Shown here piece by piece: positions 5,073 to 54,550 of a stretch of 64,000 nucleotides of DNA (positions within the stretch are counted from its first letter, which is position 1; the number at the start of each line of letters is the position of its first letter). The translations under genes were made by a program, and so were the position numbers. The DNA comes from Phycisphaerales bacterium (GTDB taxonomy: Bacteria > Planctomycetota > Phycisphaerae > Phycisphaerales > SM1A02). The stretch covers positions 124,001 to 188,000 of the forward strand of contig JAQWNP010000016.1 of assembly GCA_029268515.1 (NCBI GenBank), written 5' to 3'. Below the pieces are notes generated by a model that was not told where the DNA came from, searched no databases, and saw only the letters and a program-made list of their open reading frames with translations.

Positions 5073-6524
5073 TTAGGATGACTGCGAAGCTTCCCGAACA
5101 ATTGTTCTCACTGGTGGCCAGATGACAACATCACCGGTTGCACCAATAGGCACATGTTCTGCAGCAAGTCCATCCTCATGGTCTTGCCCAACGCTGTAAA
5201 GTAAACCCGAACCTCTCTTAAGCCAGACTCGACCCAGCGAAGTATCAAGAGCGCGCCTGGCTGCGACATACCTGTAAATCAGAGGGTCAAATTTCAGGTC
5301 AAACGCGTCAACGTTTGATCTCTTCCGCGTATAGGTCGGGTAGATCTTTTCACTGTCATTCGGATAGTTACCGTACTCTTTGTGATAGGCACAGAGCCCC
5401 GCAGAGATCGCAGTACCGTTTACTTGCACAATCAGTAGATTTCGAATCGCAAACAGCTCTTTGATGTCTCGAATGGCATAAAGAACAGCGGCATAGCGAA
5501 CTGGATTTGTACGATCGAACTCTGACTTCCTTTCCAGTATTGGATCGTATTCCTGCACACGCCAGCGGCGCCACCAGTCGTCATAAATCAATATTAAATG
5601 CCGGTGAGCCTCTTTACGGGGACTATGAAGTGCTGCCACCTTCTCCCAACGGCGAGCTGCACCAAAACGTGTCAATGGTTCAGATTCGGCCTGGATATCT
5701 GTAAATACCTTACGGAACATCTGTGGGTCTGCTTTGCCACTGTTTTCATCAAAGACCAGATCGATGAGCCCAGTCGAAACAATTCGATCTCCCTCTGGCA
5801 TCGTCAGGCGATTACGAGTTGGCTGCAAGAATGGAATATCTTCTCGACCAAAGTCCTGATATATCTTGCCTGGCATCTCATCAAGATAGGTGTAAAAGAT
5901 GTCTCGGAGGATACTAAGTGAATCAGAGAGCATCGTGATAGCAAATACTTTTTCAGCAAAGAAATCACGATCACAGAGCATTCGATAAACCCGTAAGCTG
6001 GCAACGATTTGCTTTTGAGCATCCTCAAAATTCTTCGCTTCACATAGCCGGTAGTGATTCGCTGTTGAGAATGCAGCTATGACTCGCATGGCCTTGAGGT
6101 ACGGAAACTCACTTCGGCGAAGATTACCTTCGACTCCGATTTCAATGTGTAGTCCCCGAGATTGGTAAACACTATCAACTGAGCTCTTCCCATAAGGCAG
6201 CCCAATGATATTACGATCTCCAGACTTTAAAATGGCCTCTGCCATTGCCTGGTTTCCTTCCGCCCAAGCACTGACCTGATCCCAACCTTCCATGCCAGGC
6301 CAGATTGTGGTTTGATTGAAATTGGGACCAATTTCAAAAGGTGGGGGCGAGAGTTCAAGATAAGCATCGAACAGAATGCGGTATGACTTGCTTTGTTCGG
6401 TACCGTCAACCTGAGGGCTGCTATTGAGTTGCTCTACGATGTCGGAGAATTCTTCCTGTCCCAGGGCGACCGTACCCCAGGAAAGTAAGACTATCAAAAT
6501 CATGTGAAAACGAAGGAGGGGCAT
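5073..6524 (-). CDS. Exported protein of unknown function with pseudopilin-like tail
   Basis: Not assigned to a family. The 483-residue product begins with a short charged stretch and a hydrophobic run ending in a plausible signal-peptidase I site (about residues 1-22, cut near ALGQ-EE), so it should be exported. An in-frame ATG at codon 8 could be the true start. The last ~110 residues have the pattern AYHKEYGNYP, then FDLKFDPLIYRY, then LLYSVGQDHEDG and a WPP ending. This is a layout seen at the C-termini of many planctomycete surface proteins and reminiscent of type II secretion pseudopilin G tails. The rest is helical and featureless to the eye. It stands alone between trxB and the divergent aminotransferase. 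Confidence 0.6.
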   Translation of the reverse strand: MPLLRFHMILIVLLSWGTVALGQEEFSDIVEQLNSSPQVDGTEQSKSYRILFDAYLELSPPPFEIGPNFNQTTIWPGMEGWDQVSAWAEGNQAMAEAILKSGDRNIIGLPYGKSSVDSVYQSRGLHIEIGVEGNLRRSEFPYLKAMRVIAAFSTANHYRLCEAKNFEDAQKQIVASLRVYRMLCDRDFFAEKVFAITMLSDSLSILRDIFYTYLDEMPGKIYQDFGREDIPFLQPTRNRLTMPEGDRIVSTGLIDLVFDENSGKADPQMFRKVFTDIQAESEPLTRFGAARRWEKVAALHSPRKEAHRHLILIYDDWWRRWRVQEYDPILERKSEFDRTNPVRYAAVLYAIRDIKELFAIRNLLIVQVNGTAISAGLCAYHKEYGNYPNDSEKIYPTYTRKRSNVDAFDLKFDPLIYRYVAARRALDTSLGRVWLKRGSGLLYSVGQDHEDGLAAEHVPIGATGDVVIWPPVRTIVREASQSS

Positions 6525-17253: not shown

Positions 17254-19552
17254 TACGAGAACGACTACTTGTTTCCATAGCCAGCATCAACGGGCTACGT
17301 TCATTTCTTGATGCTACTGCTAGCGAAGGCCTATCTTGAACATCACCTTCAACAACATCCCTGGCATCAGCCGCTGCTGAGAGAGATGCTTCTGATACAT
17401 ATCGGTAGCACTCTTCATAAGGGGCGCAATTAAGGATCGTTCCAAGATATCGCACGCCGTAGCGATTTAAACCGTTGAGACACTCTTCAAGCCCGCTCCT
17501 TGAGCCACCACTACGGATGACCATGATGACCCCATCTGATGCTACTGAGACAGGCGTGCTTTCAAGACTACCCGTCATTGGCCCGGTATCGACGAGAACG
17601 ATATCGAAACTCTTTCTTAGAGAATCGAATAACTCATCAATGTCTGACTTACGAATACTCTCGGGGCCAACTTTTGGATCTATACCAACCGGAAGTATGC
17701 TCAGATTATGACTTTCAAGAGCACGAACTTCCCCATTCAAGTGATGCGATCGAAGAACTTCCTTGAGACCTGGTGCTCCAACCATACCCATCTGCCGTGT
17801 CATACTGCGACCCACCAGATCGCAGTCGACAACGATGGTTCGGTATCCAGCTGCAGCATAAGAACAGCCCAGAGACATCACTAAACTGGTTTTACCATCC
17901 CCTTGAAATGGACTCGTCACCGTGACCACATACCCTTTGCGAGGATTACGAATTGCCTCGATCTGATTGCGTATTTGATGCACGCAGTGAGAAGCAACAT
18001 CAGCTCCATCGACGTCTTCTTTTGCCTGGTTCAAGTCAGGCAGAACACCAAGACATCTCGCATCTGCGTTGACTGAACTTTTACCCACGTGATACGCCGT
18101 CGTCGCTCGGCGATCAAAACAACCTATTACGAATACAATGAAGAAACCAAAAAAAGCCCCTCCAGCAAGTCCTAACATCGCACTCATTGCGCGCCGATCA
18201 CTGGATGCTAACGAAGGCACAATTCCGTATTGAATTTCTATCTGGCGTTCAATTGATGGCTCTTCAACCGTAAGATCACGAATACGCTGATTCGTTTGAC
18301 TCAGGTCTTCCTTAATGGTGGTAACGAGACTCGAGAGATCTTTTACCTCCCGCACATCTTGCATCAAAGATTCAGAGAGGGCTCTCTCTTGCTCTAGATC
18401 TGTTTTCCACATCGCTAGCTGTGATTCCAAGCGTTCAGACTTCCACGTGACGAGCACGGGATTTACGAGAATCCCATTAACACCACTGTCGAGATCCCCA
18501 CTGGCACCTACGCCAATCCATTGTGAACTCACTTCTTTGTACTGACGCTCGTAGAGTTTCTGAGCGCTGGCAAGTCGCTCCTCAGCCCAAACATACTGTC
18601 GGGCAGAGGTGTTATAACGTCCCTTAATAATCTCAAAATGACTAATCGCACTATCAAGTGTTTTACGTAAGCTCAAAAGATGGTCGTCAAACTTCTCAAG
18701 GTCCTTCTGTGAAGGGCCTACTGGCGTCACCCCTGCGATTGCCTCATCATCAATACTACTGAGTCGACGACTAGCAAGAATCTTTTCTGCTTCAGTAACT
18801 CGGGTCTGTATTGTCCCAACAACTTCATGGCTCGCAATAACTAATCCCGAAAGATCGTTCGTGTGATAGCTGGAATGAATATCAGCAATCTGCGATTCCA
18901 ATGGGCGAAGTCGGCGCTCTTGTTTTGCAACATCATCTCTTAGATCCTGAATCTTACGACCCATGCCAATGACACCAGCACGTCCATAGAGCTCGCTATA
19001 AGAGCGGACAACAGCATTGACGCCTGCTTCAGCAAGTACGCCGGTTGGCGCGGTAAAACTAACTAAAATAAGCTGCGTATCAGAGCTACTAGATGCTCTA
19101 AGACCCTCCCGAAGGTTTTCAATCCCATTCACACCTTGGAAGTATTTTTTGTTTTTCAGCTCTTCCATTGTCAGTGCATGCGCAAGTACTCGATGACTCC
19201 TGATTAAGACTGCTTGAGTTTTAAGATACTGACCGTAGAACCTAATATTGAGATCTTCAATCTTCCGACGAGTTACTTCAGTTTGAGGATCAATCTGAAT
19301 AAGTGCTTCACTTCTATACTCTTGATTTGAGTTATACCAACCTACAATCAAGCCAGCGAAACCAAGCACCACTGCTAAACACAGTGCCAATAACCAGCGA
19401 CCACCCAATCGATCTGAAAATAGTACACCGAGAGAAACCTGGCTATTTTGATCATCCTCTAGCCGAGCATCGCGAAAATCACGAGGACTATTATAAGGGT
19501 GACCCGTTTCTCCAAATTGGTCATACTCATTCCTCATGACTCGCTCCTTCAA
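17228..19552 (-). CDS. Chain-length determinant (Wzz) / BY-kinase fusion
   Basis: A 774-residue inner-membrane protein that would control length and export of the polysaccharide. Residues ~52-73 and ~456-481 are the two membrane helices that bracket a long periplasmic coiled-coil region (Wzz domain). The cytoplasmic C-terminal domain is a P-loop tyrosine-kinase-like ATPase: Walker A in SPFQGDGKTSLV (Lys ~554), Walker A' in VVDCDLVGRS and Walker B in IVLVDTGPM. Oddly, the C-terminus is not tyrosine-rich, unlike typical Wzc/CpsD kinases, so classical tail autophosphorylation is doubtful. It overlaps the EpsI-like gene by 26 bases. An in-frame ATG at codon 6 is an alternative start. Confidence 0.88.
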   Translation of the reverse strand: MKERVMRNEYDQFGETGHPYNSPRDFRDARLEDDQNSQVSLGVLFSDRLGGRWLLALCLAVVLGFAGLIVGWYNSNQEYRSEALIQIDPQTEVTRRKIEDLNIRFYGQYLKTQAVLIRSHRVLAHALTMEELKNKKYFQGVNGIENLREGLRASSSSDTQLILVSFTAPTGVLAEAGVNAVVRSYSELYGRAGVIGMGRKIQDLRDDVAKQERRLRPLESQIADIHSSYHTNDLSGLVIASHEVVGTIQTRVTEAEKILASRRLSSIDDEAIAGVTPVGPSQKDLEKFDDHLLSLRKTLDSAISHFEIIKGRYNTSARQYVWAEERLASAQKLYERQYKEVSSQWIGVGASGDLDSGVNGILVNPVLVTWKSERLESQLAMWKTDLEQERALSESLMQDVREVKDLSSLVTTIKEDLSQTNQRIRDLTVEEPSIERQIEIQYGIVPSLASSDRRAMSAMLGLAGGAFFGFFIVFVIGCFDRRATTAYHVGKSSVNADARCLGVLPDLNQAKEDVDGADVASHCVHQIRNQIEAIRNPRKGYVVTVTSPFQGDGKTSLVMSLGCSYAAAGYRTIVVDCDLVGRSMTRQMGMVGAPGLKEVLRSHHLNGEVRALESHNLSILPVGIDPKVGPESIRKSDIDELFDSLRKSFDIVLVDTGPMTGSLESTPVSVASDGVIMVIRSGGSRSGLEECLNGLNRYGVRYLGTILNCAPYEECYRYVSEASLSAAADARDVVEGDVQDRPSLAVASRNERSPLMLAMETSSRSRIENEDSEE

Positions 19553-45420: not shown

Positions 45421-46127
45421 TTTGATTGCCCCTGACTTGTCGTATCAGGCTTATATTTATCTGGATACTTCGGTTCAGTGTGGGTGTAAAACAACCAGGT
45501 TGATTCCTTTACGAAGCGTGACAACAAGCCAGTCTCAACGGCATTCTGAGAGGCACCGTCACGTGTCACGCCGCGCACGTCTGGAAACTCGGCCACCACA
45601 TTAAAAGTCTCTGCATATTGATCTGAATCATAACTTTCGCGTTCGGCCAAGCCGATTGTGGCCGCTGCCACACCCTCCCAAAGCCACTGATTTCCTGGCG
45701 GATTGAGGCGAAACTCGTAAAGGTCAATATGAACAAGACGATTGACCCCCAAATCATCGGCCACCTCACTCAAAGGCATCGCATTCCATTGTGGCGTCTG
45801 ATACTGCCACGTACGAACCATCTGTGGATTGAGCACCCGAATACCCTCAACCTCTTTCGCCAAGCGAGCTGAAATATGATCCGCAACAACCTCCATTAAG
45901 CGAGGGTGCTCGAAGAGAATTGAGTAGTCTGCATCAACGAGTACTGCAACCGTATGATTCTCAAGGCCGGAATACTCAGGATGCACCTCAATGAGTTTTT
46001 GATACTCATAGTTCTGCGCCATAGCACCAGCCAACTTAATGACACCACAACCACTGAGGCCAATGTTTGCAAAGCCAAGAAGGCAGATTCCAATACCTAC
46101 GTAAAGTCTCTGAATTGTCTTGCTCAT
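45417..46127 (-). CDS. Lipoprotein of unknown function, paralogue of the following gene
   Basis: 236 residues; hydrophobic signal ending in lipobox LSGC, then a mature domain with the same order of strands and helices as the gene behind it. A hydrophilic Lys/Asp/Thr-rich tail closes the protein. Such pairs may assemble together at the outer membrane, but nothing in the sequence states the function. The start overlaps the stop of the DUF2752 gene by 4 bases, and the stop overlaps the next start by 4 bases, so DUF2752 and both lipoproteins form one translationally coupled unit. Confidence 0.65.
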   Translation of the reverse strand: MSKTIQRLYVGIGICLLGFANIGLSGCGVIKLAGAMAQNYEYQKLIEVHPEYSGLENHTVAVLVDADYSILFEHPRLMEVVADHISARLAKEVEGIRVLNPQMVRTWQYQTPQWNAMPLSEVADDLGVNRLVHIDLYEFRLNPPGNQWLWEGVAAATIGLAERESYDSDQYAETFNVVAEFPDVRGVTRDGASQNAVETGLLSRFVKESTWLFYTHTEPKYPDKYKPDTTSQGQSK

Positions 46128-46663
46128 GATGAAGCCCCGGTCGTAACCACTAATATTTTATAGCCCCATGCAACGAGCACAACTGCGCTAATCGTCCATA
46201 GCCACCTCGCACGAAACGGCCCTGCCAAACGATTGGCCACACGAGACCCCGTAATAGCAACATATACGCCGAGTAATAGAATAGCCGCAGTCACAACTGC
46301 CAGGATTGCGCCCAAAGGCTGAGCCATAAATGCATGCCCCAGTTCTCCTTTCACCGCATGTGAAAATGAAGTGGTCATACCACAGGTTGGGCAGGGAATA
46401 CCAAAGCCAGACATCCAACTACATGCCGGCAGACCGAGTTGAGCATGCGTTCCATAGCCATCTGGATCAGGGCTCAATGAGACTGCAATGCCAAGTAGCG
46501 TTCCTGCCAATATTGCAAGAGTTAAGCCCCAAAGGCGCCGCGCTCCGACAGCATCCATTCGCTGAGCCTGCTCCACCACCAACTGCCCCCCAGGAGCTTC
46601 CGCGCACAGCTCGGCATTGCCGCTCTCGGTCAAGTTGGTTGAATTGGGTCTCGATTTCTCCAT
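46124..46663 (-). CDS. DUF2752 membrane protein
   Basis: 179 residues with a hydrophilic N-terminus (~45 residues) and three membrane helices. The conserved DUF2752 segment GFGIPCPTCGMTTSFSHAVKGE lies between helices one and two, with the C-P-x-C-G-x-T-x-S pattern. The family is widespread and its biochemical role is unknown. The long N-terminal polar stretch is unusual; a later start is possible, e.g. at the Met in AQRMDAVGARR. First gene of the minus-strand run, divergent from the M19 peptidase-like gene. Confidence 0.8.
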   Translation of the reverse strand: MEKSRPNSTNLTESGNAELCAEAPGGQLVVEQAQRMDAVGARRLWGLTLAILAGTLLGIAVSLSPDPDGYGTHAQLGLPACSWMSGFGIPCPTCGMTTSFSHAVKGELGHAFMAQPLGAILAVVTAAILLLGVYVAITGSRVANRLAGPFRARWLWTISAVVLVAWGYKILVVTTGASS

Positions 46664-47788: not shown

Positions 47789-49066
47789 CTACAAATCAAT
47801 ACAGCGAGGACGCTGGTCAGGATCTTCGGGCAGCACCAGATGTAGTTCAAAGCCACAGCGATGAAGATCATCAAGATCCCCGGCGCTATCTGCAAACAGA
47901 TGTTGCCTGATCTCGGCTTTGGCCCGCAGACCTTCGCCATGACAGGCTTCAGCGAGCAGCGGCAGGTGGTCACTCGCCCATGAAGTCACCATGACGAGTT
48001 TACGAAGTTGATCATGCCACGCGAGAATATTGAGCCGGCCCTCATTGTCAACTGCCAACTCAATTGTCTGATCATAAGGACAGCGTTGTCTCAAAGGCAA
48101 CAGATCTTTCATGAGTGAAGACCATTGACCTTGCTCAGTCGGCGCTGTGTCAACAACCACACTGCGCTGAGATGGCGATGTTGATTCCGATGTCACCAGC
48201 GCATCGAGGGCCGTTGCAGATCCAGCAGCAGCTGGCATCTCCAATTTGGGACGAGCTGTTTCTGTTGCCTGGGCGGAGGGGGCATTTTGATCAACTGGTG
48301 GCTGCTCCCAACGCACCGCTCGAGGAACATGAACAGCAGTCATGATATCGAGTACCGCATCGTTCAAACCGCCTTCACAATTCAAAGAACGGTGACTGTG
48401 TTTAAGCACATCAATACGTGGCAACGTAAGACCTAAGTGTAGCTTGACCCCAAGATGGGCTTCTGTTGTCGCTCTTAAGCGATCCATCATTTGTTCAGCC
48501 TGGTGATCATCACAACCAACGATTGCCATATGTACCGTTGGTGATGGCATTTCAGCTTCCTGGGCTGCTAAGGCCAATACTTTAATGCGCCGATAAGCCG
48601 CAACCAATGCCGCTTGATCCGCACTTGTCAAGAGTGTGATTTGATCAGGTTGACTCCGCAACAAATCGATCGGATGCATTTGTTCATCAACCAGAATAAT
48701 CCAGCAAGCAATCTCGGGCGCCAGATCAACGACCACTCGTTCAAGGTCCTGCTCGGAAGCAAGACCGTCAAGCTGCCCCAAAGGAACCTGCGCACATTGA
48801 ATTCGCACACCACTGACATCTTCTTGAACCAGGCAGGTTGGACCTTGATCAGATGCAATACGATCTAAATAGGGTGGCAGCCACAACCCCCCACGTACCG
48901 GCAAGTGACCGGCAAGTAACAAATGCCGTTGGGCTCGCTGCGGCATATCACACCCCGCACCACCGCCGCCTCGTGGCTCTGATTGATTGCCCGTTGACGA
49001 AGCTGCATCTGCTGGTGTGAGGAAGAGCTCAGCGAGTTCATCAATGGGATCGATGTGTTGGGACAT
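47789..49066 (-). CDS. Degenerate MinD/ParA-like protein, partner of the ParA-CBM48 protein
   Basis: 425 residues. After a polar, Gly-rich N-terminus (~1-45), residues ~45-235 follow the MinD/FleN order of strands: HLLLAGHLPVRGGLWLPPYL where Walker A should be, then DQITLLTSADQAALVAAYRRIKVLAL and HMAIVGCDDHQAEQMMDRL, LGLTLPRIDVLKHSHRSL. The Walker A lysines are missing, so it cannot bind ATP in the normal way. A Pro/Ala-rich linker follows, and the last ~110 residues form an unassigned domain. It starts 11 bases after the ParA-fusion gene and is almost surely cotranscribed; a heterodimer with it is inference. Confidence 0.55.
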   Translation of the reverse strand: MSQHIDPIDELAELFLTPADAASSTGNQSEPRGGGGAGCDMPQRAQRHLLLAGHLPVRGGLWLPPYLDRIASDQGPTCLVQEDVSGVRIQCAQVPLGQLDGLASEQDLERVVVDLAPEIACWIILVDEQMHPIDLLRSQPDQITLLTSADQAALVAAYRRIKVLALAAQEAEMPSPTVHMAIVGCDDHQAEQMMDRLRATTEAHLGVKLHLGLTLPRIDVLKHSHRSLNCEGGLNDAVLDIMTAVHVPRAVRWEQPPVDQNAPSAQATETARPKLEMPAAAGSATALDALVTSESTSPSQRSVVVDTAPTEQGQWSSLMKDLLPLRQRCPYDQTIELAVDNEGRLNILAWHDQLRKLVMVTSWASDHLPLLAEACHGEGLRAKAEIRQHLFADSAGDLDDLHRCGFELHLVLPEDPDQRPRCIDL

Positions 49067-49077
49067 GATTAGTCGCC

Positions 49078-50394
49078 TCAGCCGACGATCAGCACGTTAC
49101 AAGGGCCGATTGCCGGGTCGTTCTGTCGTTGATCGTTGTATGAATCGAGCCCCGCCTGCCCGTCGACCAGAATCTGATAGCGATACCGCCCCTCTGGAAG
49201 AGGTACTGTTATCTCAAGCATTCCAGTTTGCTCGCTACGTTTCAATCTGATTGGTGCCCAAGCATTAAAGTCTCCAGCCACAGAGACAACTTGCGCCCCC
49301 GAATCGGGCTGCACAAAGCGGACACCGCCTGAAGTTACTTCAGCACCCAAGAAGCGATTCACTTCAATCTCAGGGGGATCCAGAGGCGCCTTCTCCAGCA
49401 TCGCATCAGGCACGGGCTCATTGCCGATCTGCTCATCGGATGGCTGATCAGTCACTGACTGCCCCAAAAACTCTGAGGACTCTGCTTCACTTTTTACTTT
49501 GCTTTCAGCTCGATTGATTCTCGCCACTAACTCGGCAGCACGATGTCCCCGATCAGAGATCGGTGGCGCAACACGACTCTCGGTCATCGGCACACTGAAT
49601 TGCTCTTGTGGTGCCGCCAAAATACGCAAACGCTCTAACTCATCAGCAAGATCTTCAAACTCTTGATGTGCCATTGACTGCGGGGCATATTCGAGGATGG
49701 GCTGGCCCATACTCACCGCCTCTCGCAGCTCTTCATGACGACGAATGACGGTCCGCAATAACTCACCAGGGAAGTCGCGGCGTAGCGACTCAAGAATTGT
49801 TGTTGCAAGTTTGGATTCAGGGTCATACATCGTGGCAAGAAGATGACACTGCAGCGGACGACCCATTCGACTAATTAAGTTCTGAACAGTGCGAAACTGT
49901 TTATGCGCACCGCGCATTGCAAAGAATCCTGACTCGACCGGAATCAATGCGTCATCGGCCGCCCGAAGTGCATTGAATGTTAGTAATCCAATCGCTGGCG
50001 AACAGTCAATGAGGCAAATGTCATAATCCGGTTTGATCAACTTCAACAGACTCTCAAGCCTGCGATCGCGATCGGCTCGCTGGTGCAATCCGCCACCTGG
50101 AGCCTCCACAGCGGCTAGTCGCATCGTACTGGGAAGCAGGTGAAAGCTTCTTCCGACCTCCCAAACCACCGACTTTAAATTAAGACCCTGCTCATGCTCA
50201 GCTAAGAGTGCCTCTGAAACACTGAATTCGATATCGTCTTCGGGAACACCAAGACCTGCAGCACAGTGTGACTGGGGATCAAGATCAACCAACAGGGTTC
50301 GCTTGCCGCGCGCTGCAAAGACTGCAGCCAGGTTGATTGCTGTGGTCGTCTTCCCGGAGCCACCCTTTTGATTGACTATTGCAAAAACCCGCAA
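49078..50394 (-). CDS. ParA-family ATPase fused to a glycogen-binding (CBM48/AMPK-beta-like) domain
   Basis: 438 residues. Residues 1-~255 form a complete ParA/Soj ATPase: deviant Walker A KGGSGKTTTAIN (start of protein), LVDLDPQSHCAAGLG, Walker B ICLIDCSPAIGLLT and VESGFFAMRG. A polar linker (~270-350) follows. Residues ~352-438 match the early-set carbohydrate-binding module of AMPK-beta and branching enzymes: VSVAGDFNAW (374-379 is GDFNAW), then ITVPLPEGRYRYQILVDG and the closing CNVLIV. The second aromatic of the sugar platform, usually W after VDG, reads A-G-L here. No parB or parS is nearby. A surface- or glycan-positioning ATPase is suggested but unproven. Confidence 0.85.
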   Translation of the reverse strand: MRVFAIVNQKGGSGKTTTAINLAAVFAARGKRTLLVDLDPQSHCAAGLGVPEDDIEFSVSEALLAEHEQGLNLKSVVWEVGRSFHLLPSTMRLAAVEAPGGGLHQRADRDRRLESLLKLIKPDYDICLIDCSPAIGLLTFNALRAADDALIPVESGFFAMRGAHKQFRTVQNLISRMGRPLQCHLLATMYDPESKLATTILESLRRDFPGELLRTVIRRHEELREAVSMGQPILEYAPQSMAHQEFEDLADELERLRILAAPQEQFSVPMTESRVAPPISDRGHRAAELVARINRAESKVKSEAESSEFLGQSVTDQPSDEQIGNEPVPDAMLEKAPLDPPEIEVNRFLGAEVTSGGVRFVQPDSGAQVVSVAGDFNAWAPIRLKRSEQTGMLEITVPLPEGRYRYQILVDGQAGLDSYNDQRQNDPAIGPCNVLIVG

Positions 50395-50523: not shown

Positions 50524-51639
50524 TCAATCAAGTTCAGCACCAACATAATTCCATGCTTCCACCACCGCTTGATGATCAACGTCCTCAACAATCGAGACCG
50601 CTCCGATTGCATCGGGCACGATCAGCCTTATCACACCATTGAGGACCTTTTTGTCGAACTGCATTGCCTCGACAAGGGATGCCGCTTTAACAGGACTTGG
50701 CAGCCGAGTTGGCAAGCCAAGCGAAGCAAGGAGTTGCTCGATTCGTAGGCAGGTCGCTGCCGAAAGCTTGCCTGATTGCTGGCTGACCCGGCAAGCAGCC
50801 ACAATCCCAATAGCAACAGCCTCACCATGAAGAAGATCTAGAGCCGGTAAGGGCTCAATAACGTGAGCGAATGTATGGCCTAGATTCAGGAGTGCTCGCC
50901 GCCCTGCCTCACGCTCATCCTGTTGAACGATATCAACTTTGATTTCTATCGAGCGGCTGATCAACTCTGTTTGGATTGCCTCATTATCTGTTAGGAGCGT
51001 TTCACCCTGACTTTCGATCCAGTCAAACAAACTTTCATCAGCGATCATGGCATGCTTCACACACTCTGCCAAGCCACAGCAACGATCTCTACGCGAGAGC
51101 GTTGTGAGGGTGCGCGGATCAACGATCACAGCTGTTGGTTGCCAAAAGGAGCCAACAAGGTTCTTCCCCAAAGTCCCGCTGGGTAAATCAAAGTTAACGC
51201 CAGTCTTCCCTCCGATCGAAGCATCGACCATCGCAAGGAGCGTGGTCGGAACTTGAATCAGAGGCACACCCCGAAGGTAGGTCGCGGCGAGAAAGCCTGC
51301 CACATCTCCAGTCAGACCACCGCCAACAGCAATCACCGGATGGGACCGATCAAGATGACCTTCTAACATCTTGTTGTATCCATCGCTCACTGTCGCCAAT
51401 CGCTTGTTGGACTCCTTGGCGTGAATTTCCCATTCAATAACATCAACGCCCATTGCCTCTAGTGCGCGATGCACTGCTTGACCATGCGTTTCTTTCACCG
51501 CAGCATCGAGCACAAGTAAACAACGACGAGATTGAAGATCTTCGACCACTGAAATTGTGACCAAGCGACTAATGGCACCGGGCTCAACGATGATTGGATA
51601 AGAAGCCGTTGGAAGATTCACTTCCGTGCGATAAATCAT
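50524..51639 (-). CDS. aroB: 3-dehydroquinate synthase
   Basis: Second enzyme of the shikimate pathway, NAD- and zinc-dependent, 371 residues. Diagnostic stretches are AVGGGLTGDVAGFLAATYLRG, QVPTTLLAMVDASIGGKTGVNF, and the zinc ligands around CVKHAMI, NLGHTFAHVIE and LLHGEAVAIG. It starts within a 4-base overlap with the upstream exported protein gene. Other aro genes are not in the window. Confidence 0.95.
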   Translation of the reverse strand: MIYRTEVNLPTASYPIIVEPGAISRLVTISVVEDLQSRRCLLVLDAAVKETHGQAVHRALEAMGVDVIEWEIHAKESNKRLATVSDGYNKMLEGHLDRSHPVIAVGGGLTGDVAGFLAATYLRGVPLIQVPTTLLAMVDASIGGKTGVNFDLPSGTLGKNLVGSFWQPTAVIVDPRTLTTLSRRDRCCGLAECVKHAMIADESLFDWIESQGETLLTDNEAIQTELISRSIEIKVDIVQQDEREAGRRALLNLGHTFAHVIEPLPALDLLHGEAVAIGIVAACRVSQQSGKLSAATCLRIEQLLASLGLPTRLPSPVKAASLVEAMQFDKKVLNGVIRLIVPDAIGAVSIVEDVDHQAVVEAWNYVGAELD

Positions 51640-53306: not shown

Positions 53307-53764
53307 GACTTCGATGACCTATTGGGCAAGGCCTCCCCGGCCCTCTCTCGGCCCCCTACAGGGCATCGCGGACGTATCTGCGACCCCCAAGGCCATGTGC
53401 CGCCTGAGCGGCCACAGTGGATGCTAAGACGCCTGCACAAGGTCGCTCACAAGCCTTTGCCTTGCAATGCTTTACGAAATTTCGTGGGTTCCGAGGACGT
53501 GGCTATTGCCCACCGAGTACCCAGTGTCTATTGTGCTGTAGAAGCCGCCTGAGATGCTGCAACGAAGTAGTCCTTGGACTACTGCACATCGCCGCCCGGG
53601 AGTGTCGGAGCGATCGGGCGGCGGCTTCATTTTTGCCCATCGAATGTGAACTACCAAGAACACCCGCTTTTCAAACAGAGTGGCGTGGGAACCCCACAGT
53701 GACATGTCGAGCAATGAGATTAAGATTCTCATTACAATACAATCGTCCTGTGGAGGTACACCTA
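53307..53764. other. Long intergenic region with several hairpins
   Basis: 458 bases between the phosphorylase-family gene and the PagL-like gene. Frames open in this region have no ribosome site and appear non-coding. Hairpins: 53366-53383 (7 bp with one G-U), 53396-53416 (GCCGC/GCGGC core), a 12-bp palindrome ACGAAATTTCGT at 53474-53485, and the inverted repeat AGTAGTCC/GGACTACT at 53566-53583, then the terminator listed separately. A structured RNA is possible; tmRNA, RNase P and 6S cores were looked for and not found. Confidence 0.35.
53590..53634 (+). terminator. Rho-independent terminator
   Basis: CGCCGCCC at 53590-53597 pairs with GGGCGGCG at 53616-53623 around an 18-base loop, followed by GCTTCATTTTTG with a five-T run (53630-53634). 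It would end transcription from the phosphorylase gene or an RNA in the upstream gap. Confidence 0.7.
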
Positions 53765-54550
53765 ATGCTCAGTTCACTAACTACGACGACAATCATTGCT
53801 CAAATGGCGATCACACCGTTACCAGACGCCACCCAGGCATCAGACTTTCTGACCCTAAAGAATGGCACATCGATCAATGCTTTTCATATCCCGACACTCG
53901 ATGATGGGCGCAGCGATCTTCATGAAATTGCCGTATTAGACCTATCCAGCGATCTTAATACACCACACACATGGAACAAACGCTTCCGTACCAGCCTTGT
54001 CTCTACTCAGGATTCATCAGAAAGCAATCCAGAGAGCACCGACGCGCCAGCTATTAATGAGACCGCTTCTCGTATTGCCTTTGGCACTCAAGGCCAACTA
54101 CGCTGGACCATACAGGGCGCTTGGTCGATTAGTGTCAAAGACGCTGAGGATCAATCTGGTCTGCTTGGCTTTGGAATCGACTACTTCCTGATAGATAACT
54201 TATCGATCAATGGTGAGTTCAATGGCGCCTATGTGAATCAAGTAGGCCCAGACGCTTGGGGCTTCAATTTCAATCTCATTGCCCGCTGGCACATCATCGC
54301 TCAAGAGAACTGGTCCTTCTTTGTTGATGGCGGAGCTGGTCTCTTATGGACGACTGAAAACGTCCCGGACAATGGAAGTCGTTTTAACTTTACGCCTCAG
54401 GCCGGCGTTGGTTGCACGATTGGCGTGGGCGGCAATGCACGTGTCATCACTGGCGTTCGCTGGCTACACATCTCAAACGCCAACCTCTATTCGTCAAATC
54501 CTGGGCGAGATAGCATTGAGGTTTACGCGGGCATCACACTGCCATTTTGA
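53765..54550 (+). CDS. PagL-like acyloxyacyl hydrolase / outer-membrane beta-barrel protein
   Basis: 261 residues from ATG 53765, with GGAGG eight bases ahead; the frame is open a further 350 bases upstream, without ribosome site. The second half is made of alternating amphipathic strands ending in Phe (TLPF), as in outer-membrane barrels. Near the end lies VRWLHISNANLYSSNPGRDSIEVYAG, matching the H-x-S-N-A...N-P-G block of PagL lipid A 3-O-deacylases, where the His and Ser are catalytic; a Glu follows in DSIEVYAG. This suggests lipid A editing at the outer membrane. The N-terminal ~100 residues, largely polar, are not part of PagL. A classical signal peptide is weak. Confidence 0.6.
   Translation: MLSSLTTTTIIAQMAITPLPDATQASDFLTLKNGTSINAFHIPTLDDGRSDLHEIAVLDLSSDLNTPHTWNKRFRTSLVSTQDSSESNPESTDAPAINETASRIAFGTQGQLRWTIQGAWSISVKDAEDQSGLLGFGIDYFLIDNLSINGEFNGAYVNQVGPDAWGFNFNLIARWHIIAQENWSFFVDGGAGLLWTTENVPDNGSRFNFTPQAGVGCTIGVGGNARVITGVRWLHISNANLYSSNPGRDSIEVYAGITLPF

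Follow-up and report, generated by a model that had tools for sequence, protein, structure and literature searches.

The ParA-CBM48 fusion gene and its neighbours

The window, i.e. the whole 64-kb stretch of Phycisphaerales DNA that was analysed, carries a confirmed fusion, one gene coding for a ParA ATPase that is joined, through a disordered linker containing a single helix, to an AMPK-beta-type CBM48 carbohydrate-binding module (CBM; Table 1). Its 438 codons form a single unbroken reading frame with a TTG start, preceded by AAGG about 7 nt upstream. The initial annotation had described a complete ParA ATPase with a deviant Walker A motif in the first 255 residues and a CBM48/AMPK-beta domain at the C-terminus of the same gene, and these assignments were borne out. 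Indeed, residues 2-179 matched PF13614 in a Pfam search (E=1.7e-42), and residues K10, K15, T16, D37, and D130 do not vary among 40 aligned orthologues, K10 being the signature lysine of the deviant Walker A motif (KGGxGKT). The ParA motifs are complete in 40 of the 41 aligned orthologues, the remaining sequence being masked. A Foldseek comparison placed the domain closest to Soj (9a6n, 8ray, and 2bek; TM score of about 0.9 of the target), the solved ParA/Soj chains nearest to it being 35-38% identical. At the position equivalent to R218 of Soj, which we take to be the DNA-binding arginine of ParA, the window protein has a glutamate; this position is acidic or uncharged in most members of the window's family and a lysine in many others.

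Similarly, the C-terminal tail scored above the cut-offs of both PF16561 (AMPK1_CBM; residues 365-425, E=2.7e-8, 34.3 bits versus 26.8) and PF02922 (CBM_48; 23.6 bits versus 22.4). With the final 88 residues alone as phmmer query, the AMPK beta-1 structures 4yef and 1z0m were found at E~2e-5, and 1z0n was matched as well. Structure prediction, which the initial annotation had proposed as a check on the tail, returned a confident and separate C-terminal domain. The AlphaFold model (m42cb80567529; alignment of 40 orthologues; mean pLDDT 86) comprises two domains at pLDDT >90 with a disordered linker between them, in which one helix is predicted.

Table 1. Features of the fusion gene, its partner gene, and the upstream neighbour (window coordinates)
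Feature	Position	Strand	Basis or remark
ParA-CBM48 fusion gene	49078..50394	-	438 aa ORF; Pfam; AlphaFold model; class-wide orthologues
ParA/Soj ATPase domain, residues 1-255	49630..50394	-	KGGSGKTT deviant Walker A, DxDPQ, Walker B IDCSP
Linker helix, RAAEL motif, residues 284-304	49483..49545	-	helix in model; conserved motif
AMPK-beta-type CBM48 domain, residues 350-438	49081..49347	-	PF16561 above cut-off; phmmer to AMPK beta-1; site table
Partner gene	47789..49066	-	425 aa; start 11 nt past stop of fusion gene
Partner N-terminal helix, DELAELF/DELADLF motif, residues 7-15	49022..49048	-	model; alignment; disordered stretch next
Partner degenerate FlhG/FleN-like domain, residues 44-244	48335..48937	-	no Walker A; profile, Foldseek, VIA
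Partner C-terminal alpha/beta domain, residues 311-425	47792..48136	-	model, alignment
aroB (3-dehydroquinate synthase)	50524..51639	-	TIGR01357 4.2e-105; upstream neighbour in window's family

The gene that follows the fusion, which the initial annotation had not linked to it, is a partner conserved together with parA across the order. A partner profile retrieved it in 32 of the 44 class genomes searched, directly downstream of parA, with a spacing of -17 to +58 nt and several 4-nt overlaps. In family f6, a distant copy was found downstream of parA (L090; E=9e-16); in f8, which carries the fusion, the partner was not detected by the profile. The gene has no Pfam or NCBIfam match. Its N-terminal peptide is acidic, and its C-terminal domain, which has no Pfam match, possesses the near-invariant residues P330, D340, H346, W363, and H409. 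The N-terminal half is, as judged from profile and model comparisons, a degenerate FlhG/FleN-like ATPase. The partner profile matched FleN/FlhG chains weakly (E=0.003) and the organism's own FlhG at E=5e-8, while the model had FlhG 4rz2 as its best Foldseek match (E=2e-6) and aligned with FlhG 4rz3 in VIA (Z 11.2, 163 residues, rmsd 3.6). The top seven VIA rows were all FlhG/FleN, the next families having a Z of about 8-9. A Walker A motif was found in none of the 31 partners. The genome also possesses a separate flhF-flhG cluster of the normal kind, after which comes a sigma-factor-like ORF (G000:C16 24701-28144; L003), so that the partner is a repurposed FlhG paralogue.

A conserved context beyond the parA-partner pair was considered and rejected, as aroB, a glycosyltransferase, LpxK/RfaE, FtsK, and other neighbours differ by family. 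The aroB gene, a neighbour in 12 of the 42 fetched loci, probably stands outside the ParA-CBM system, and LpxK and RfaE-type genes flank the fusion locus in one family. The neighbourhoods of the fetched loci displayed no link with sugar-storage genes. Other genes of the window encode a protein with a C-terminal PagL (lipid A 3-O-deacylase) domain (53417-54550, + strand; E=1.6e-16) and a DUF2752 protein (46124-46663, - strand).

The statement in the initial annotation that no parB or parS is nearby was upheld. The genome's only ParB match is located on contig C2, and no canonical parS was found in the window at up to three mismatches. Contig C2 also carries a canonical ParA (35% identity); it lies about 14 kb from the ParB gene and is not adjacent to it (G000:C2:183343-198404; L002, L098). 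The presence of a canonical ParA and ParB elsewhere in the genome thus makes the ParA of the fusion a spare copy. A further stretch of the window, within a 783-aa open frame, weakly resembles a ParA-like ATPase (17507-17920, - strand; G000:C16:141507-141920; 29% identity, E=0.004).

Distribution of the fusion and state of its glycan-contact residues

A survey of 392 Planctomycetota genomes, such as the initial annotation had suggested, revealed that the fusion is class-wide in the Phycisphaerae, the class of the window organism, and not a one-off. Full-length or ParA-plus-tail matches occurred in families f1-f6 and f8, whereas in f7 and the rest of the phylum sample essentially the ParA part alone was covered, among about the best 150 matches listed. 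The CBM was detected by Pfam in 34 of 40 aligned class orthologues, so that the fusion can be put down neither to chance similarity nor to faulty assembly. Enlarging this set with further loci and scoring them with a CBM profile gave 67 orthologous loci, 55 of them with the CBM; the other 12, all of the same order, keep ParA without it. The possibility that the first six CBM-less loci were frameshifts with a CBM next door was rejected, since a whole-genome PF16561 search found no CBM adjoining their parA. The RAAEL motif of the linker helix is present in many members of the order, including the CBM-less loci L073, L086, L092, and L113. A scan of GTDB contigs retrieved only a same-genus relative (CALCOW010000253.1) because strict peptide patterns were used; the scope of the survey was otherwise Planctomycetota. 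In a same-genus metagenome-assembled genome, the parA-CBM frame is split near 5321-5370 (L054:5020-6397), probably through an assembly frameshift.

In AMPK beta, glucan is contacted by W100, K126, W133, and N150 (PMC4032982), and glycogen binding is abolished by W100G and K126Q and weakened by W133L (PMC6274970). The CBM of the window protein keeps W379 (equivalent to W100) and N433 (N150) and has substitutions at Q407 (K126) and A414 (W133). Most relatives differ from it: 44 of the 55 CBM-bearing orthologues have W, R, and W at positions 100, 126, and 133 (one locus read by eye from the alignment), and CBMs with an intact site match AMPK beta-2 structures at 3e-12 with the contact residues aligned. 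Glutamine occupies position 126 in six of the 55, the window protein among them, and W133 is lost in all six. Judged by these residues, the family looks competent for glucan binding, which is plausible in most relatives given their intact contacts, whereas the copy in the window is probably no longer able to bind glycogen.

Family searches of the window genome (99.5% complete) found no match to GlgA, GH13, or phosphorylase (PF00343 or TIGR02094); the sole GH57 enzyme has 413 aa. Together with the equivalents of K126Q and W133A, this makes tethering or sensing of glycogen unlikely in this organism. The initial annotation was right in assigning a tail of sugar-binding type to ParA, but its proposal of a glycogen tether or sensor is not supported for this organism. 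In the window lineage, the CBM-like fold more likely binds a protein, or some other altered ligand, than glycogen.

Many genomes of the class possess an archaeal-type alpha-glucan set (TIGR02094 phosphorylase, GH57, and GH77), GlgA being nearly absent. In G057, a glycogen-synthase-like glycosyltransferase of the GT4/5 type adjoins GH57, and the single-contig genome G368 has an intact site although GlgA, GH13, and phosphorylase were not found in it. All 12 GH13-less genomes kept the CBM, and the presence of the CBM had no positive link with GH13 (p=0.16, in the opposite direction, shared ancestry being ignored). Likewise, among genomes of known status, site intactness was unrelated to the presence of phosphorylase (27/41 versus 9/14, p=1, shared ancestry again being ignored). 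An association of W133 conservation with phosphorylase, as detected by PF00343 (26/27 versus 3/8, p=0.0009), was rejected, as it disappeared with TIGR02094 and a larger genome set; it was an artefact, since PF00343 missed divergent phosphorylases that TIGR02094 found. Overall, GH13 and phosphorylase genes did not co-vary with the CBM itself or with the intactness of its site. Family f7, which has no ParA fusion, contains a stand-alone AMPK1_CBM protein of 109 aa whose gene adjoins those for an alpha-glucan phosphorylase and a GlgA-like protein (G311:C1:232350-236765 and G331:C1:1041292-1045711).

A putative positioning system

ATPases of the ParA/MinD family arrange structures as varied as chromosomes, carboxysomes, chemotaxis arrays, and flagella, and many orphan members have no known cargo. 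The locus is best read as a second, non-chromosomal system specific to the Phycisphaerae. Sequence and model data suggest a dedicated ParA-type positioning system in which the CBM serves as cargo or target module, to which we assign a probability of about 0.5. ATP-bound ParA-CBM dimers would attach to a surface, which is probably that of the nucleoid, and the tail would hold or recognise the cargo. In most relatives, this cargo may be an intracellular alpha-glucan or a glucan-coated body; in the window lineage, where contact residues are replaced, it may be a protein surface. The pseudo-FlhG partner would act as an adaptor resembling ParB or McdB, its N-terminal peptide triggering ATP hydrolysis and the protein linking ParA to the cargo.

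Known partner proteins of A/D ATPases are highly diverse and contact the ATPase through their N-terminus, with peptides described as positively charged (PMC10241942). The layout of the N-terminal peptide of the partner resembles theirs, the partner gene is adjacent to parA and often overlaps it, and its product is kin to FlhG, itself a positioning ATPase of the ParA/MinD family; these features argue for the positioning reading, together with the intact ATPase motifs, the spare status of this ParA, and the widely kept CBM with its mostly intact contact site. Against it stand the acidic residue at the DNA-binding arginine position in the window protein and the acidic character of the partner peptide, compared with the basic ones known. 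Neither the partner nor the CBM is strictly required, as the former was undetected in the fusion-bearing family f8 and the latter was lost from 12 loci that keep ParA.

A glucan as the cargo throughout the class can be proposed only tentatively, and for the window organism it is highly improbable. The complete scenario, in which a ParA with its own glucan-binding cargo hook, regulated by a pseudo-FlhG, places an intracellular polysaccharide body for inheritance across the class, is unlikely. The same applies to the positioning or segregation of glycogen granules, with the CBM binding the cell's own glycogen and ParA spreading the granules to the daughter cells. The intact contacts in most orthologues and the alpha-glucan enzymes of many class genomes favour such a role, despite the near absence of GlgA. 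However, the window organism has two of the contacts substituted and lacks GlgA, GH13, and phosphorylase, an intact site does not go with phosphorylase, the CBM persists where GH13 is missing, and G311 and G331 have a glgA-like gene yet no fusion. Alternatively, a glucan or oligosaccharide on the CBM may allosterically control the ParA ATPase and so couple carbon status to the cell cycle. Such a sensor would agree with AMPK beta, the closest solved relative of the CBM, through which glycogen inhibits AMPK (PMC6274970), but the linker between the two domains is disordered in the model and the gene neighbourhood offers no link with sugar storage, making this explanation still less probable.

A glycan-independent role is doubtful but conceivable, the CBM-like fold then being a protein dock for the partner or for an envelope or polar complex, in a cousin of the FlhG/BcsQ-type placement of surface machines. 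Retention of the fold in the window lineage after loss of two contact residues fits this explanation, as do the match of all 40 orthologues to PF06564 (BcsQ), the FlhG origin of the partner, and the LpxK and RfaE-type flanking genes of one family. However, the strong conservation, in 44 of 55 orthologues, of exactly those residues by which AMPK contacts its glycan would be difficult to account for if no glycan were involved; moreover, the NCBIfam cut-off for BcsQ was missed and flanking genes differ between families. Finally, it is very unlikely that the fusion is a variant of chromosome segregation, an extra ParA working with the chromosomal ParB. Although its ParA domain is nearest to Soj, a separate canonical ParA lies in the vicinity of the only ParB, the fusion gene has a conserved partner of its own, and the window has no parS.

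As to its wider meaning, the dedicated positioning system proposed above would concern an orphan ParA that a whole bacterial class has kept, with a clue to its cargo fused on and a conserved candidate partner alongside. The intact, substituted, and lost CBMs among relatives constitute a natural series with built-in controls, and the ParA-CBM system can be tested directly in cultured Phycisphaerae.

Comparison with known systems

Both domains of the fusion are known. The literature searched contained nothing relevant on a ParA with a carbohydrate-binding module or glycogen-binding domain, nor on the positioning of a polysaccharide cargo by ParA, in line with the initial annotation, to which no described ParA-CBM48 system was known. 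No account of the fusion was found there either, nor of its conservation across the class or its pairing with a pseudo-FlhG, and all three look undescribed.

The fusion shares its ATPase fold and motifs with the Soj/ParA chromosome partition system but differs by its CBM tail, by a partner of its own in place of ParB, and by the lack of the adjacent parB and parS that characterise ParABS loci. BcsQ, the ParA-like protein of cellulose secretion, has the ParA fold too, and PF06564 covers the fusion orthologues; these fall below the NCBIfam TIGR03371 cut-off (97 versus 157.85 bits), and no bcs genes were among the neighbours identified. Positioning of carboxysomes by McdA-McdB likewise relies on an orphan ATPase of the ParA type that has a partner gene of its own, and a non-DNA cargo is proposed here as well. 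In contrast, the partner of the fusion is an FlhG-derived pseudo-ATPase and the fusion keeps the signature lysine K10; we know of no glycan-binding domain in McdA. The partner itself resembles FlhG/FleN (4rz2, 5j1j) in the fold of its N-terminal half and by a weak profile match, whereas it has no Walker A motif, possesses a new N-terminal peptide and a new C-terminal domain, and coexists with a separate normal FlhG. As for the tail, the CBM48 of AMPK beta (4yef, 1z0n, 4y0g) is its closest solved relative and most orthologues keep the contact residues, but the module is joined here to ParA instead of a kinase scaffold, with the K126Q and W133A equivalents in the window copy.
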